Of a DNA stretch of 38,837 bases, positions 10,072-17,955 are shown piece by piece. The DNA is taken from the NCBI GenBank assembly GCA_019911865.1, contig JAIOJQ010000146.1, forward strand, positions 1 to 38,837. Direction: 5' to 3'. Numbering within the stretch: the stretch's first letter is position 1; each line of letters begins with the position of its first letter. The translations under genes and the position numbers were made by a program. Source of the stretch: Thermoanaerobaculia bacterium (lineage in GTDB: Bacteria > Acidobacteriota > Thermoanaerobaculia > Multivoradales > JAGPDF01). The notes under the pieces are model-generated. The model was not told the DNA's origin. It did not search any database and was given only the letters and a program-made list of their open reading frames with translations.

Positions 10072-10114
10072 TGGACACGTCGCTTGCACCGTTTTAAGAT
10101 ACCGGCATCCGAAA
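10072..10114 (+). promoter_or_regulatory. Candidate sigma70-like promoter with overlapping operator dyad for the had-bcr operon
   Basis: TGGACA (10072-10077)-N17-TAAGAT (10095-10100). Hyphenated dyad TTTaaGATaCCGGcATCcgAAA at 10093-10114. GGAGG RBS at 10129-10133; had ATG at 10140. Confidence 0.5.
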
Positions 10115-10139
10115 TCGCTTTTGAACCCGGAGGCTTTCG

Positions 10140-11216
10140 ATGCAGGTGGAAGCGTGGACCGTGTACCAGGGCGGCGAACCGATGCGGTTGGAGAATCGCC
10201 AGGAAACCCCCGGTGCCGGCGAGGTCGTCGTCGAGGTCGCCGGCTGCGGCGTCTGCCACACCGATCTCGGCTTCTTCTACGACGGGGTGCCCACCCGCCA
10301 CCCCTTCCCGCTCACCCTCGGCCACGAGATCTCAGGCGTCGTCGTCGAGGCGGGCCCCGGGGCCGCGGAGTGGATCGGTCGAGCCGTCGTCGTCCCGGCG
10401 GTCCTGCCGTGCGGCGAGTGCGCCGCCTGCCGCGCCGGCCGCGGCGCCATCTGCCCGCGGCAGATCTTTCCCGGCAACGACCTGCACGGCGGCTTCGCCA
10501 GCCACGTCCGCGTCCCCGCCCGCGGTCTCTGCCCCCTCCCCGACCTCGCCTCCCCCACCGCAAATCCGGCCGGCCTCGAGCTCTGGATGCTGAGCGTCAT
10601 CGCCGACGCGGTCTCCACTCCCTGGCAGGCGATCGCGCGCAGCGGTCTCGCCGCAGGCGACCTGACGGTCGTCGTCGGCTGCGGCGGGGTCGGCGGATTC
10701 GCGGTGCAGATCGCCGCGGCGCGCGGCGCCCATGTCGTCGCCGTCGACGTCGACGCCGGCCGTCTCGAACAGATGCGGCGCAACGGCGCCGAGCTGACGC
10801 TGCAGGCGGGAGCCCTCGACTTCAAGGCGATCAAAGGGGAGATCGAGGGCCTGACGAAGCGCCGCGGCATTCCGGGATTCCGCCAGTTCGTCTTCGAGAC
10901 TTCCGGCACGCCGGCCGGCCAGACGACCGCCTTCGGCCTGCTCGGGCGCGGCGGCTACCTCGGCGTCGTCGGCTTCACGCCCCACAAGGTCGAGATCCGC
11001 CTCTCCAACCTGATGGCCTTCGACGCCACGGTACAGGGCAACTGGGCCTGCCTGCCCGAGCACTATCCCGACATCGTCGCGGCGGTACTCGCCGGTCGCC
11101 TCGCCCTCGCCCCGTTCGTCGAACGGCGATCGCTGGCGACGATCCAGGAAGTCTTCGCGCAGCTGCACGCCGCGCCCTACAGCCACCGCATCGTCCTCAC
11201 CCCGGAGAACGCCTGA
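10140..11216 (+). CDS. had: 6-hydroxycyclohex-1-ene-1-carbonyl-CoA dehydrogenase
   Basis: Zn-dependent MDR: CGVCHTDLGFFYDGVPTRHPFPLTLGHEISG, CGECAACRAGRGAIC, VVVGCGGVGGFAVQIA. The had identity is supported by adjacent oah-like and bcr genes. Confidence 0.85.
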   Translation: MQVEAWTVYQGGEPMRLENRQETPGAGEVVVEVAGCGVCHTDLGFFYDGVPTRHPFPLTLGHEISGVVVEAGPGAAEWIGRAVVVPAVLPCGECAACRAGRGAICPRQIFPGNDLHGGFASHVRVPARGLCPLPDLASPTANPAGLELWMLSVIADAVSTPWQAIARSGLAAGDLTVVVGCGGVGGFAVQIAAARGAHVVAVDVDAGRLEQMRRNGAELTLQAGALDFKAIKGEIEGLTKRRGIPGFRQFVFETSGTPAGQTTAFGLLGRGGYLGVVGFTPHKVEIRLSNLMAFDATVQGNWACLPEHYPDIVAAVLAGRLALAPFVERRSLATIQEVFAQLHAAPYSHRIVLTPENA

Positions 11217-12343
11217 TGCCCTTCGCCTTCCACGATCACGACCTGCCCGTCCCGCCGCCGCAGCCGGACGGCGAAGCGCGCGTCCTCTGGGAGCGCCTGC
11301 CACTGCGCTCGCCCGACGGCACGCCCGATCCCGAGCTCAAGGTCGTCCGCATCACCCTGGACAACCCGAAACAGTTCAACTCCTACACCACCGCGATGGT
11401 CAAGGCGGTGATCCTCGGCTTCCGTCGCGCTTCCAACGATCGCGCCTGCGTCGCCGTCGTCTTCACCGGCGGCGGCGATCGCGCCTTCTGCACCGGCGGC
11501 AACACCGCCGAGTACGCCACCTACTACGCCGGCCGCCCGGAGGAGTACCGCCAGTACATGCGGCTGTTCAACGACATGGTCAGCGCCATCCTGGCCTGCG
11601 ACAAGCCGGTCATCTGCCGGGTCAACGGCATGCGGATCGCGGGCGGGCAGGAGATCGGCATGGCCTGCGACTTCTCGATCGCCCAGGACCTGGCGACTTT
11701 CGGCCAGGCGGGGCCGCGCCACGGCTCGGCCCCGGACGGCGGCTCGACCGACTTCCTGCCGCTGTTCGTCGGCATCGAGGCGGCGATGGAGAGCTGCACC
11801 CTGTGCGAGACCTGGAGCGCCCACAAGGCGCTGCGCCTCGGCCTGCTCAGCCGCGTCGTCCCGGCCCTGCGGGTCGACGGCGAGTTCGTTCCCAACCCCC
11901 TGGTGGTCACCGACCGCTGGCTAGGCGAGGCGGGCCGCCCCACCTTCGGCGAGCCGCGCGGCGGCGCCGACCGGGTCGCCGGCAAGGAGCTGCTCTCCCG
12001 CGGTGCCGTCGACCTCGGCCCGCTCGACGAGGCGGTCGACGAGCTGGTCTGGAAGCTCGCCCACACCATGCCGGGCTGTCTCTCGAAGACCCTCGAAAGC
12101 CTGCGCAAGCACAAGCTCGAGCACTGGGACCGCAACCGCGAGTCGAATCGCGCCTGGCTGGCGCTCAACATGATGACCGAGGGGCGGACCGGCTTCCGCG
12201 CCTTCCACGAGGGAGACCGCAACCGGCGCGAGATCGACTTTCTCGACCTGCGTCGCCGGCTGGCGCGCGGCGAACCGTGGAGCGAGAAGCTCACCGAGAG
12301 CCTGATCGCGCCGCTCCGGCCGGCCCCGGCGGAGACCAGGTGA
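11216..12343 (+). CDS. oah: 6-oxocyclohex-1-ene-1-carbonyl-CoA hydrolase (Oah/BamA family, crotonase fold)
   Basis: 375 aa with LDNPKQFNSYTTAMVKAVILGFRRASND, CTGGNTAEYATYYAGRPEEYRQYMRLFNDMV, CRVNGMRIAGGQEIGMACDFSIAQDLATFGQAGPRHGSAPDGGSTDFLPLFVG, which are BamA/Oah-specific blocks. Confidence 0.9.
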   Translation: MPFAFHDHDLPVPPPQPDGEARVLWERLPLRSPDGTPDPELKVVRITLDNPKQFNSYTTAMVKAVILGFRRASNDRACVAVVFTGGGDRAFCTGGNTAEYATYYAGRPEEYRQYMRLFNDMVSAILACDKPVICRVNGMRIAGGQEIGMACDFSIAQDLATFGQAGPRHGSAPDGGSTDFLPLFVGIEAAMESCTLCETWSAHKALRLGLLSRVVPALRVDGEFVPNPLVVTDRWLGEAGRPTFGEPRGGADRVAGKELLSRGAVDLGPLDEAVDELVWKLAHTMPGCLSKTLESLRKHKLEHWDRNRESNRAWLALNMMTEGRTGFRAFHEGDRNRREIDFLDLRRRLARGEPWSEKLTESLIAPLRPAPAETR

Positions 12344-12813
12344 GCGCGGTCGCCCCGGCGCTCGCCGTGCGCCGCCTCGCTCCGGAGGACCTCGACCGGG
12401 TGGTCGAGATCGACGCCCACCATCGCGGCAGCGCGGTCCCCGACTACTGGCGCGGTGTGCGCGAGGCCTTCCTGGCGCGCGGCGGCGGCCGGGTCCGGGT
12501 CGCCCTCGGCGCCGAGTCCGAGGGCCGGCTGGTCGGCTTCCTGTTCGGCGAGTCGCGCGCCTTCGAGTTCGGTTCCCCCGCCTGTGGCTGGATCTTCGCC
12601 GTCGGCGTCGAGTCCGGTCACCAGCGCGGTGGCATCGCCTCCGCCCTGCTCTCGGAGGCCTGCCGGAAGTTCCGCGCCGCCGGCATCGCCACCATCCGCA
12701 CCATGGTGCGCCGCTCCGACGTCCCCGTCCTCGCCTTCTTTCGCGCCCACGGCTTCGCCGCCGGCGAGTTCACCCAGCTCGAGCTGAACCTGTCCGAGGG
12801 AGATTCGCGATGA
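12340..12813 (+). CDS. GNAT family acetyltransferase embedded in the benzoyl-CoA operon
   Basis: GTG start overlaps the oah stop by 4 nt. GNAT motif A: IFAVGVESGHQRGGIASALLSEACRKFRAAG; VPVLAFFRAHGFAAGEFTQLEL. Confidence 0.8.
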   Translation: MSAVAPALAVRRLAPEDLDRVVEIDAHHRGSAVPDYWRGVREAFLARGGGRVRVALGAESEGRLVGFLFGESRAFEFGSPACGWIFAVGVESGHQRGGIASALLSEACRKFRAAGIATIRTMVRRSDVPVLAFFRAHGFAAGEFTQLELNLSEGDSR

Positions 12814-13979
12814 GCGCAGCCGTCACCTCCGTCGTCGACCGGGCCGAGGCCCACTACCGCGACCTGGCACTGGCCGGCGTCCGTCGCTGGAAGGAGGCGA
12901 CCGGCGGCCTGGCGATCGGCTACCTGCCGATCTGGGCGCCGCGCGAGATGCTGCACGCCCAGGGGGTCCTGCCGGTGGGACTCATGGGGGGCGGCGAGGA
13001 CGTCGAGATCATCCGCGGCGACGCCTTCTACCAGTCCTACATCTGCCACCTGCCGCGCTCGACCGTCGAGCTCGGCCTCGGCGGCCAGCTCGATCCGCTC
13101 GACGGCCTGCTCTTTCCGGCCATCTGCGACGTCATCCGCAACCTCTCCGGCGTCTGGCAGCTGCAGTTTCCCGGCAAGCTGGTGCGCTACCTCGACGTGC
13201 CGCAGAACTTCGATCCGGAGATCGGCGGCCACTTCCTGCGCCAGGAACTCGAGTCGCTGGCCGCCGAACTCGCGGAGCGCGGTGCCCGGCCACTCGAAGC
13301 GGAGGCGCTGCGCGCTTCGCTCGCCGCCTACAACGCCAATCGCGCCCGGGTGCGCGCCCTCTACGCGCTGCGCGAGCGCGAGCCCTGGAAGGTGCCGACC
13401 TGGGAGCTCTACCTGATCGTGCGCGCCGGTCTGGTGCTGCCGGTCGAGGAGTTCGACCGCCTGCTCGACGACTACGCGGCGGCGGTGACCGCCGACGAGG
13501 AGCGCCGGCCGATGGACCAAGCGCGCGTCCTCGTCGTCGGCTCGTTCTGCGAACAGCCGCCGCTCGGCCTGATCAAGACCCTCGAGCGCTCGGGCTGCTA
13601 CATCGTCGACGACGACTTCGTGCAGATCCATCGCTTCCTGCGCTCCGACATCCCGCTCGACGGTGATCCGCTCGCCAATCTCGTCACCGCCTTCCTCGAC
13701 GATGCCGTCGAGAGCCCGACGCGCTTCTGCGGCACCGACCGCAAGGCCGAGGCGATGGTCGAGCGCACTCGCGCCTGCCGCGCCGAGGGGGTCGTCTTCT
13801 GCGCTCCGAGTTTCTGCGACCCGGCGCTGCTCGACCAGCCGATGGCGGTCGAAGCGGTCGAGTCGATCGGCGTTCCCTGGACCGCCTTCAAGTACGCGGA
13901 GAACACCGGGCAGTTCCAGGTGATCCGCGAGCAGGCCGGCACTTTCGCCGACTCGATCAAGCTGTGGAGCAACCCATGA
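12810..13979 (+). CDS. bcrC: Benzoyl-CoA reductase subunit C (class I)
   Basis: HgdB-like subunit with YICHLPRSTVELGL, FPAICDVIRNLSGVW, GSFCEQPPLGLIKTLERSGCYIVDDDF and VVFCAPSFCDPALLDQP; followed by bcrB-A-D. Confidence 0.9.
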   Translation: MSAAVTSVVDRAEAHYRDLALAGVRRWKEATGGLAIGYLPIWAPREMLHAQGVLPVGLMGGGEDVEIIRGDAFYQSYICHLPRSTVELGLGGQLDPLDGLLFPAICDVIRNLSGVWQLQFPGKLVRYLDVPQNFDPEIGGHFLRQELESLAAELAERGARPLEAEALRASLAAYNANRARVRALYALREREPWKVPTWELYLIVRAGLVLPVEEFDRLLDDYAAAVTADEERRPMDQARVLVVGSFCEQPPLGLIKTLERSGCYIVDDDFVQIHRFLRSDIPLDGDPLANLVTAFLDDAVESPTRFCGTDRKAEAMVERTRACRAEGVVFCAPSFCDPALLDQPMAVEAVESIGVPWTAFKYAENTGQFQVIREQAGTFADSIKLWSNP

Positions 13980-15277
13980 CCTCTCCGACCCCGACGACGG
14001 GAGCGCGCGAGGCGCTCAAGGACGCCAGCCAGCTGCGCCAGAAGCGGATGATCGCCGAGCACTACACCCGCCTGGCGAGGGCCCCCGAGACCGGCAGCCG
14101 GAGCGTCTACACCTTCGTTCCCGGCAACCTCACCGAGCTGCTGCGCAGCTTCGACCTGCTGCCGGTGCTGCCCGAAATCAATGCCCTGCAATCGGCGATG
14201 CGCGGCAAATCGAAGGAGTACATCGCCATCGCCGAGAAGGCCGGCCAGAGCGAAGACGTCTGCACCTACGTCAAGGCCGACTACGGAATGATGAAGGCGG
14301 GCAATCTCGGGCCGACCGGGGAAAAACTTCCCGATCCGGACCTGCTGCTGCTCTCGTACACCGGTTGCTTCACCTTCCTCAAGTGGTTCGAGATGCTGCG
14401 TCACGAGTACAAGGCCCCGGTGGTGATGTTGCACGTCCCCTACCAGGCCGATGGGCGGATCACCGAGTCGATGCGCAACTACGTCGTGGCGCAGCTGCGC
14501 GACAAGGTGATCCCGGAGCTCGAGCGGATCTCCGGCAAGCGATACGACGAGGACCGCCTGCGCGAAAATCTCGCCCGCTCGGCGCGTGCCGAGGAGGATC
14601 TCGTCGCGGTCCTCCAGTCGGCCCGCCGGCGGCCGTCGCCGATCGACTCCTACTTCGGCGCCGTCTACTACGTCGGACCGATCTTCTCCGCCTTCCGCGG
14701 CACGGAGGACGCCTGCGACTACTACCGCGAGTTGCGCGCCGAGATCGACGAGCGCGTCGCACAGGGTCTCGGCCCGGTCACCCCGGACGGCCAGATCGGA
14801 CGCGAGCGCTTCCGCCTGGTCGTCGAGGGCCCGCCGAACTGGACCCACTTCCACGAGTTCTGGCGCATGTTCGCCGACGAAGGGGCGGTCGCGGTCGCCT
14901 CTACGTACTCCAAGGTCGGTGGCGTCTACGACACCGGCTTCCGTCACGACCCGGATCATCCCCTCGAGACGCTGGCCGACTACTGCATGGGCTGCTACAC
15001 CAACCTCTCGCTCCCCTCGCGGGTCGACATGATCTGTCGCTACGTCGAGGAGTACGAGGCCGACGGCGTGCTCATCCACTCGATCAAGAGCTGCAACTCC
15101 TTCTCCGCCGGCCAGCTCGCCATGCTGCGCGAGATCGAGAATCGCACCGGCCGGCCGGGGGGGTTCATCGAGAGTGACCTCGTCGACCCGCGCTACTTCT
15201 CGGCCGCCAACCTGAAGAACCGGCTCGAGTCCTACTTCCAGATGATCGACCAGAAGCGCGGGAGGCTCTCGGCATGA
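13976..15277 (+). CDS. bcrB: Benzoyl-CoA reductase subunit B (class I)
   Basis: SYTGCFTFLKWFEMLRHEYKAPVVMLHVPYQ, EGPPNWTHFHEFWRMFADEGAV, DYCMGCYTNLSLPSRVDMICRYVEEYEADGVLIHSIKSCNSFSAGQ. Confidence 0.92.
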   Translation: MTSPTPTTGAREALKDASQLRQKRMIAEHYTRLARAPETGSRSVYTFVPGNLTELLRSFDLLPVLPEINALQSAMRGKSKEYIAIAEKAGQSEDVCTYVKADYGMMKAGNLGPTGEKLPDPDLLLLSYTGCFTFLKWFEMLRHEYKAPVVMLHVPYQADGRITESMRNYVVAQLRDKVIPELERISGKRYDEDRLRENLARSARAEEDLVAVLQSARRRPSPIDSYFGAVYYVGPIFSAFRGTEDACDYYRELRAEIDERVAQGLGPVTPDGQIGRERFRLVVEGPPNWTHFHEFWRMFADEGAVAVASTYSKVGGVYDTGFRHDPDHPLETLADYCMGCYTNLSLPSRVDMICRYVEEYEADGVLIHSIKSCNSFSAGQLAMLREIENRTGRPGGFIESDLVDPRYFSAANLKNRLESYFQMIDQKRGRLSA

Positions 15278-16575
15278 ACGGCTACGTCGGCATCGATCTC
15301 GGTTCGACGACCACCAAGGCGATCGTCCTCGGCGAGGACGGCGTCATCCTCGGCAAGGGAATCACCAACAGCCGCAGCAACTATTCCGTTGCCTGCGACG
15401 TCGCCCTCTCCGAGGCGCTGATCGACACCCGCTTCGGTCGAATCTCGGCGGCGCTCGCCGCCAGACAGCTCGATGAGGAGGAGCGCAGAAGACTGCTCGA
15501 CGAGCTCGAGCGGCGATTCCGCGAGCAACAGTATCGCCGCCTGCTCGCGCTGTTCGCCGAGCGCATTCTCGGTCACGCGGCCGCGGCCCCGGACAGCGAC
15601 ACGATCGCCCCGGCTCTGCGCGGCATCCTGGACCGCATGGAGGGCGAGAGCGGAAAACTCTTCGCGGCCGGGGCGACGCGGCGCAGCGACTTCTTCCGCG
15701 ACCTCGCCGGTGGCCGCTTTCTCGAACTGGCGGAACAGGCGGCGCGCGCCCTCCAGGTCGGCTTCGACCGCCTCGCCGGACTCTTCGATCGCACGATCCT
15801 CGAGGTCGAGAATCTGCCCGCCGACGAGGACTCGTTCTCCGGCCTCGTCGCCGCCGCCGTTCCTGCCGACGCACCGCCGGCGCTCACCCGCGCGGTCTCG
15901 GAGGCGACCGCCGCACCGATCACCGTGACGCGCTCGGTCGGCACCGGCTACGGCCGTGCCACTCTTCCCTTCCCCAAGGATCAGATCCGCTCCGAAATCC
16001 TCTGCCACGGCCTCGGTGCTCACCACCTCTTCCCCGGCTCCCGCACGGTGCTCGACATCGGGGGCCAGGACACCAAGGCGATCCAGGTCGACGCCGATGG
16101 CATCGTCACGTCCTTCCAGATGAACGACCGCTGCGCCGCCGGCTGCGGCCGCTACCTCGGGTACATCGCCGACGAAATGAACCTGGGCCTGCACCAGCTC
16201 GGCCCCCTGGCGATGACTGCCAAGCGCACGGTTCGCATCAATTCGACCTGCACGGTGTTCGCCGGGGCGGAACTGCGCGAGCGACTCTCGCTCGGCGAGA
16301 AGCGCGAGGACATCCTCGCCGGTCTGCACCGCGCGATCATCCTGCGGGCCCTTTCGTTGCTCGCCCGCTCGGGTGGTGTCACCGACGAATTCACTTTCAC
16401 CGGCGGGGTGGCGAAGAACAGCGCTGCCACGGCGGCGTTGACCGAACTCATCCGGTCCAACTACGGGGAACGGACGATGAACATCTCTCCGGACTCCATC
16501 TACACCGGCGCGCTCGGTGCTGCACTCTTCGCCCGCCGGGACGCCGAGGCGGGAGCCGAAAGGAGCGTCGCATGA
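15274..16575 (+). CDS. bcrA: Benzoyl-CoA reductase subunit A (class I, ASKHA ATPase)
   Basis: GIDLGSTTTKAIVLGEDG, LDIGGQDTKAIQVDADGIVTSFQMNDRCAAGCGRYL, INSTCTVFAGAELRERLSLGEKREDILAGLHRAI. 433 aa with a long insertion, like Thauera-type BcrA. Confidence 0.92.
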   Translation: MNGYVGIDLGSTTTKAIVLGEDGVILGKGITNSRSNYSVACDVALSEALIDTRFGRISAALAARQLDEEERRRLLDELERRFREQQYRRLLALFAERILGHAAAAPDSDTIAPALRGILDRMEGESGKLFAAGATRRSDFFRDLAGGRFLELAEQAARALQVGFDRLAGLFDRTILEVENLPADEDSFSGLVAAAVPADAPPALTRAVSEATAAPITVTRSVGTGYGRATLPFPKDQIRSEILCHGLGAHHLFPGSRTVLDIGGQDTKAIQVDADGIVTSFQMNDRCAAGCGRYLGYIADEMNLGLHQLGPLAMTAKRTVRINSTCTVFAGAELRERLSLGEKREDILAGLHRAIILRALSLLARSGGVTDEFTFTGGVAKNSAATAALTELIRSNYGERTMNISPDSIYTGALGAALFARRDAEAGAERSVA

Positions 16576-17447
16576 GTGTCCTGGCCGGAGACGGAACGCT
16601 GCGCGTGGCCGGCATCGACGTCGGTACGGCGGCAGTCAAGCTGGTCCTGCTCGACGACCGGCCGGGCGAGCGCCCACAGGTCGTGCTGACCCGCCTCGAG
16701 AGGATCCGCCGCCGCGATCCGCAGAAGGTGGTCGAGGAGATCTTCGCCGAAGCGCTCGTCGCCGCGGGCTCCGCAAGCGACGAGCTCGCGTACGTGGCGA
16801 CCACCGGCGAGGGGGAAATGGTGCGCTTCCGCACCGGTCACTTCTACGGCATGACCACGCACGCCCGGGGCGGCCTGTTTCTCGACCCGGAAGTCCGCGG
16901 CGTGCTCGACGTCGGCGCCTTGCACTGCCGCGGCGTGGCGATGGACGAGCGCTCGCGCGTTCTCGGCTATCGGATGACCAGCCAGTGCGCCTCGGGGTCC
17001 GGCCAGTTCCTCGAGAACATCAGCCGCTATCTCGGCGTTTCGCTCGACGACATCGGTCCGCTCTCCCTGCAGTCCGACCAGCCCGAGGCCTGCTCGTCGA
17101 TCTGCGCCGTGCTCGCCGAGACCGACGTCATCAACATGGTCTCGCGAGGCATCTCGGCGTCGAACATCATCCGGGGGATCCACCAATCCATGGCCGGTCG
17201 GTACCTGCGCCTGCTCTCCAACCTCGGAATCCGCGGCGCCGTGCTGGTCACTGGCGGCCTGGCGGCCGACGTCGGCCTGGTTGCGGCGCTGCAGGAGGCG
17301 GCGACCGGCGCGAAGGGCGGGCTCGAGCTGCGCACCCACCCGGAGTCGGTGCTCGCCGGCGCCTATGGCGCGGCTCTGTGGGGCGCATTCCGCGCTCGCA
17401 AGCTGGCGAACCTGGGGCTCGAGCTGGCGAGCGGCGAAGCGGCCTGA
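16572..17447 (+). CDS. bcrD: Benzoyl-CoA reductase subunit D (class I, ASKHA ATPase)
   Basis: AGIDVGTAAVKLVLLDD, LDVGALHCRGVAMDERSRVLGYRMTSQCASGSGQFLENISRYLGV, CSSICAVLAETDVINMVSRGI. 291 aa. Confidence 0.92.
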   Translation: MSVLAGDGTLRVAGIDVGTAAVKLVLLDDRPGERPQVVLTRLERIRRRDPQKVVEEIFAEALVAAGSASDELAYVATTGEGEMVRFRTGHFYGMTTHARGGLFLDPEVRGVLDVGALHCRGVAMDERSRVLGYRMTSQCASGSGQFLENISRYLGVSLDDIGPLSLQSDQPEACSSICAVLAETDVINMVSRGISASNIIRGIHQSMAGRYLRLLSNLGIRGAVLVTGGLAADVGLVAALQEAATGAKGGLELRTHPESVLAGAYGAALWGAFRARKLANLGLELASGEAA

Positions 17448-17499: not shown

Positions 17500-17955
17500 A
17501 TGAACTTCCAGCTGTCGACTCGCTACGCCCTTTACGCGGCGCTCGAGATGGCCTCGACCGACGACGGGCGACCGGTCACCGCCGCGCAGGTCGCCGACCG
17601 ATATCGCATCCCGCCGTCGGTGGTCGCCAAGGTGATCCAGCGGCTGGTCAAGGCCGGCCTGGCGCACGGCACCCGCGGTACTACCGGGGGCTATCGGCTC
17701 GCCCGGCCGGCAGCCGAGGTGACGCTGATCGAGGTGGTCGAGATCTTCGAGGGGGGGAGGGAGGCAGCCGCCTGCTCACTCGCCGGATGCGGCGAGGCTC
17801 CCTGCCGGCAGATGGCCGAATGCCGGCTGCGGCGCCTCTTCGAGGAGATCGACGAGCAGGTGAGGGTCACGCTGGCTTCGGTAACCCTCGCCACCCTCGT
17901 GGCGCCGCGAACCCCGCTGGCACCGCTGGTGCAGCTGGCCGCGCGTCGCGCCTGA
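17500..17955 (+). CDS. Rrf2 family transcriptional regulator (BadM-like by context) with a four-Cys cluster
   Basis: MNFQLSTRYALYAALEMAS..., wHTH block AAQVADRYRIPPSVVAKVIQRLVKAGLAHGTRGTTGGYRLARP, then CSLAGCGEAPCRQMAEC; 52 nt after the bcrD stop. Confidence 0.85.
   Translation: MNFQLSTRYALYAALEMASTDDGRPVTAAQVADRYRIPPSVVAKVIQRLVKAGLAHGTRGTTGGYRLARPAAEVTLIEVVEIFEGGREAAACSLAGCGEAPCRQMAECRLRRLFEEIDEQVRVTLASVTLATLVAPRTPLAPLVQLAARRA

Follow-up and report, generated by a model that had tools for sequence, protein, structure and literature searches.

How is a class I benzoyl-CoA reductase operon of a thermoanaerobaculial genome regulated, and does a short dyad at its promoter serve as the operator of the Rrf2-family protein encoded at its far end? 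The stretch of DNA analysed here, 38.8 kb in full and called the window below, carries the operon on the forward strand. It opens with had, for 6-hydroxycyclohex-1-ene-1-carbonyl-CoA dehydrogenase (10140–11216, ATG at 10140; TIGR03201, 435 bits against a cut-off of 339), and oah, for 6-oxocyclohex-1-ene-1-carbonyl-CoA hydratase (11213–12343; TIGR03200, 552 bits, cut-off 464). These are followed by a gene for a GNAT acetyltransferase of the clade GNAT1 (12343–12813; PF00583) and by bcrC, bcrB, bcrA and bcrD, for the class I benzoyl-CoA reductase (12810–17447), with TIGR02263, TIGR02260 and TIGR02261 over their cut-offs and TIGR02259 just below, at 543 bits versus 578. The last gene, rrf2 (17500–17955), is thereby linked to the class I bcr genes; its product is the candidate operator binder and has orthologues in the operons of relatives. 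It scores 117.9 bits with PF02082 (cut-off 30) and 107 bits with TIGR00738 (cut-off 73), and it falls under the equivalog cut-offs for IscR (72 versus 208 bits), NsrR (62 versus 182), RirA and CymR. Its sequence matches include the Rrf2 family regulator 6hsd (E 7e-17) and IscR 4hf2 (E 4e-10). A sequence-only reading of the window had named all of these genes as we find them, and had pointed to a dyad upstream of had as the site through which the Rrf2 protein acts on its own operon.

That dyad, TTTAAGATACCGGCATCCGAAA, occupies 10093–10114 and is symmetric at 8 of 11 pairs (16 of 22 positions), just as claimed. It lies on a sigma-70-like promoter, TGGACA-N17-TAAGAT (10072–10100, forward strand; hexamers at 10072–10077 and 10095–10100), which is the sole promoter-like pair between 9800 and 10300 (1 found, 0.0 expected from the shuffle mean). 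The surroundings also agree with the reading's description of an AT-rich patch in GC-rich DNA, since the 40 bp around the dyad are 45% GC and the window is 72% GC. Taken by itself the dyad is unremarkable. Markov simulations of the 131-bp intergenic region produced a 22-bp stretch with 8 or more symmetric pairs out of 11 in 36% of cases (P ~0.36), and 219 stretches of 22 bp in the window reach that level too. The reading had proposed a genome-wide search with its literal pattern, and this returned the pattern's own copy only, even with 3 mismatches allowed. The idea of an RNA element within the 5′ region was set aside: Rfam gave no match there, and because the -10 hexamer lies within the dyad, the dyad would not be transcribed whole. 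No terminator was found. The dyad thus draws its significance from comparison with relatives, not from its own statistics.

For this comparison, had loci were gathered from public species genomes and the DNA upstream of had was read. In many Acidobacteriota and in one Myxococcales genome it contains a 24-bp inverted repeat that follows, in some cases loosely, the consensus AAATMGGWA-N6-TWCCKATTT. Copies include AAATAGGTACTGAAATACCTAATT in G011, from the genus of the window, AAATAGGAACTGTAATACCTATTT at two loci (L015 and L016), AAATAGGAATTTGTTTACCTATTT (G424), AAATCGGTATTTTAGTACCGATTT (L024), AAATAGGTATTCGGTATCCTATTT (G022), AAATAGGTATCCTATTTCCGATTT (G273), AAATAGGAATCCGAATTCCTTTTT (G453), AAATAGGAGTCCGATTTCCTGTTT (G432) and AATTAGGTGTCCTAATTCCGAAAA (G280); the Myxococcales MAG has a perfect 9-N6-9 dyad, AAATCGGTA-TTTTAG-TACCGATTT. 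The nearest relative of the window, G012, carries TATTCAGAATTCGGATACTGATTT (24 bits) together with a promoter, TGGACT-N17-CAGAAT, placed within 1 bp of the same position relative to the operator. The site begins 20 bp past the start of the TGGAC(A/T) box in the window and 19 bp past it in G012, with the -10 hexamer inside the site in both. Elsewhere its usual place is over the -10 hexamer or a little downstream of it. In six genomes (G011, G022, G273, G403, G424 and G453), the consensus at up to 1 mismatch is matched at the had promoter and nowhere else in the genome, and because of this uniqueness the site in the relatives looks like a dedicated operator with no regulon. The comparison of had upstream regions that the reading had called for therefore came out in two parts: the literal dyad is not kept, and what is kept is the 9-N6-9 operator, of which the dyad is a degenerate copy.

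In the window this copy is TTTTAAGAT-ACCGGC-ATCCGAAAT, or TTTTAAGATACCGGCATCCGAAAT in full, at 10092–10115; it encloses the 22-bp dyad and shares its centre at 10103.5. The strong consensus, AAATNGGTA-N6-TACCNATTT, has no match in the window within 4 mismatches, and the window site deviates from it at 10 of the 16 fixed positions. Nine distinct operators, the window's copy left out, were combined into a symmetric matrix, which ranks 10092 first in the window, at 14.4 bits versus 7.3 for the runner-up, and when G012 is left out as well, 10092 still ranks first (11.7 versus 8.3 bits). The chance of the window score is 7e-7 per position at genome composition and 4e-4 in DNA as AT-rich as the patch, where ~0.09 such scores are expected per 200 positions; we judge this support for the window copy as a member of the operator set to be real but not overwhelming. 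The copy scores lowest in the set, at 14.4 bits against 20–37 for the others and 31–37 for the best kept. It fits the relaxed pattern WWWTMRGWW-N6-WWCYKAWWW with 0 mismatches and is the sole match in its own genome at up to 1 mismatch, a search that gave no second site of the kind a regulon would require; this pattern was drawn with the window site in view, and the matrix test alone is free of that circumstance. In G010, a genome of the same genus in which no Rrf2 orthologue is found at E 1e-12, a relaxed site drew attention but stays at the level of the control pattern and was rejected. On these grounds the window site is best drawn as 10092–10115, a divergent member of a conserved operator family.

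Presence of the site follows presence of the regulator. Where a had-bcr locus has the operon's Rrf2 and readable DNA upstream of had, the operator is found in 12 of 13 cases, and it is found in 0 of 26 had loci that lack this Rrf2 (Fisher P 3e-9, a value that ignores kinship). The exception, G067, has both Rrf2 and GNAT, and its best operator candidate has 4 mismatches. The clearest case lies within one genus, where G022 possesses Rrf2, GNAT1 and the site and G021 possesses none of the three. The best Had tree implies at least 6 changes in the Rrf2 state. Three independent pairs, all on branches with good support, point the same way in nearly every random pairing, which is too few for significance alone, and the co-occurrence represents a small number of independent events, 3 strongly supported and 6 at most. 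Together with the matrix fit, this pattern supports, though it does not prove, the proposal that 10092–10115 is where the Rrf2 protein from 17500 acts to control its operon.

Based on these comparisons, we put the probability at roughly 0.8 that 10092–10115 is the operator of the operon's Rrf2 and that the bound dimer represses its own operon until a signal of anaerobic aromatic growth arrives. Four features visible in the DNA underlie this reading: the site, its overlap with the promoter, its co-occurrence with rrf2 and its uniqueness in the genome. Rrf2 regulators bind dyads, and an Rrf2 dimer would bind the 9-N6-9 dyad here. The operator extends from about -15 to +9, counted from a transcription start that is predicted to lie 7 bases beyond the -10 hexamer, and because it covers both, a bound dimer would block RNA polymerase. 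This position, together with the precedent of BadM, an Rrf2 protein of Rhodopseudomonas palustris that represses the bcr operon (PMC6191541), argues for repression rather than activation as the presumed sign of regulation. Since rrf2 starts 52 bases past bcrD and lacks a separate operator, it is probably transcribed with the rest of the operon and autoregulated, so the bound protein would repress had-oah-GNAT-bcrCBAD-rrf2, its own gene included. The signal of anaerobic growth on aromatics would then lift repression; the two leading candidates for it are a small-molecule product of the GNAT, as in the BadL/BadM pair, and a cysteine-bound cluster sensed through its redox or iron state.

The divergence of the window copy could also be read as decay, with a real operator in the relatives and a remnant in the window, and perhaps in G012, where Rrf2 control would be lost or weak. 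The low bit score relative to the best-kept sites and the chance-level quality of the literal dyad are what such a remnant would display, but every W, T and G position of the relaxed pattern is kept on both sides, the placement on the -10 hexamer is preserved, and the window's Rrf2 and GNAT genes are intact. The site of G012 has shifted too, as co-evolution of protein and site within a lineage would produce, and we regard decay as improbable. We give about half as much credence to a dyad that is a by-product of the AT-rich -10 region and is bound by no regulator. Its ordinary symmetry and its single genome copy fit such an accident; however, the site is the window's top match to a matrix derived from other genomes, and matching sites occupy the same place at 11 other loci with Rrf2 and at none without it.

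Equally doubtful is use of the site by some other regulator, either of the CRP/FNR type or another of the genome's five Rrf2-like proteins. FNR/CRP sites have the form TTGAT-N4-ATCAA, unlike the GAT-N6-ATC spacing found here. Further Rrf2 proteins are encoded on C188 and C451, and R. palustris has the CRP-type AadR beside BadM (PMC6191541), so candidates of both kinds can be named; but the C188 paralogue is only 34% identical, a protein close to it in G012 is encoded away from the bcr operon, and the co-occurrence is with the operon's own Rrf2.

The panel also yielded a pairing that the sequence-only reading had not included, a new and unexpected addition to its idea: genes of the GNAT1 clade are present in 13/13 loci with Rrf2 and in 0/26 loci without it. 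In the GNAT tree this clade is split from the other GNAT group with a support of 1.000, and its members also occur at L015, L024, L097, L116, L152, L153, L155, L157, L158 and L189. Most relatives have a member of a second GNAT clade immediately ahead of rrf2 (for example L116:9600-9178 and L158:4741-4292); this clade is common in operons without Rrf2 as well and is absent from the window operon. The closest solved GNAT structure matches the window protein at only E 0.001. In R. palustris, acetamidobenzoates made by the GNAT BadL release BadM from the bcr promoter, and BadL-BadM gene pairs have been noted in other Proteobacteria (PMC6191541). By analogy, the window GNAT is a candidate for a BadL-like role as the maker of the inducer. 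A plasmid search for close BadM or BadL relatives found none, and its Rrf2 matches were distant.

As to the signal, the C-terminal half of the window Rrf2 contains four cysteines, and three of them are conserved in 11 of 14 aligned operon orthologues, the window's included. Their spacing in the operon orthologues differs from that of IscR, and the window protein may bind a cluster. In the Rrf2 proteins of L015, L156 and L157 all three cysteines are gone and the operator is retained, which argues that a cluster is not required everywhere; the loss favours a ligand over a cluster as the signal, and these orthologues offer natural controls for distinguishing the two modes of sensing. The reading had suggested benzoyl-CoA or O2 as the effector, and by comparison with BadL/BadM an acetylated aminobenzoate would be an equally good candidate.

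By family and gene context the locus resembles the BadM/BadL system, with an Rrf2 protein tied to class I benzoyl-CoA reductase genes and a GNAT gene in the cluster. BadM acts on the bcr promoter (PMC6191541), as the window Rrf2 may do on the promoter of its own operon. The arrangement differs, however: in the window rrf2 stands at the end of the had-bcr operon and the GNAT gene lies between oah and bcrC, and many relatives carry the second GNAT beside rrf2, a gene found also where Rrf2 is absent. Even so, the acidobacterial set of GNAT1 and Rrf2 looks like an instance of the same logic. With IscR, NsrR and RsrR the operon protein shares membership in the winged-helix Rrf2 family, judged by sequence, and most operon orthologues have three conserved cysteines that may correspond to the cluster ligands of those sensors; unlike them it appears to have one operon-specific target and no regulon, and three orthologues are without the cysteines. 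BzdR and MbdR of Azoarcus are, to our knowledge, not Rrf2 proteins. They regulate genes for anaerobic benzoate and 3-methylbenzoate degradation (PMC6678401, PMC4424350), and the likeness is one of local transcriptional control over a benzoyl-CoA-type pathway.

What emerges is a precise operator and regulator, proposed for the anaerobic breakdown of aromatics in bacterial groups represented here almost entirely by MAGs. The pairing of GNAT1, Rrf2 and operator further suggests that the R. palustris logic of an acetyltransferase-made inducer reaches beyond Proteobacteria. We offer more tentatively, as a generalization that may well fail, that the operon-encoded GNAT and Rrf2 together make up a self-sufficient switch, worked by a small molecule, in bcr operons of Acidobacteriota, Planctomycetota and Myxococcota. 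The GNAT would acetylate an aromatic amine and the product would remove Rrf2 from one dedicated operator, with some lineages adding a cysteine-bound cluster as a redox input and others having lost it.

Several smaller observations concern the loci themselves. The window operon is without a dienoyl-CoA hydratase gene (dch), the best homologue in the genome, on another contig (G000:C444:17951-18694, 170/292 bits), falling below the family cut-off; in G011 a dch gene lies within the operon. In-frame stops flagged in some had homologues proved on re-alignment not to be internal. On C18 of G403 bcrD is followed by a short fragment from the 5′ end of rrf2 (L016:9539-9650), and a full rrf2 with its GNAT gene lies ~11 kb away (L156:1615-2013), a split that may reflect either rearrangement or assembly error. 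Two Planctomycetota had loci (L017:9946 and L020:3208) have an operator-like site at 2–3 mismatches; the contig of the former stops after had, and no bcr or Rrf2 gene was seen near the latter. At seven loci (L152, L153, L155, L157, L189, L116 and L015) a third half-site, for example ATATAGGTAAATAGG, is spaced 7–8 bp from the operator and in many cases covers the -10 hexamer; it may provide room for a second dimer.
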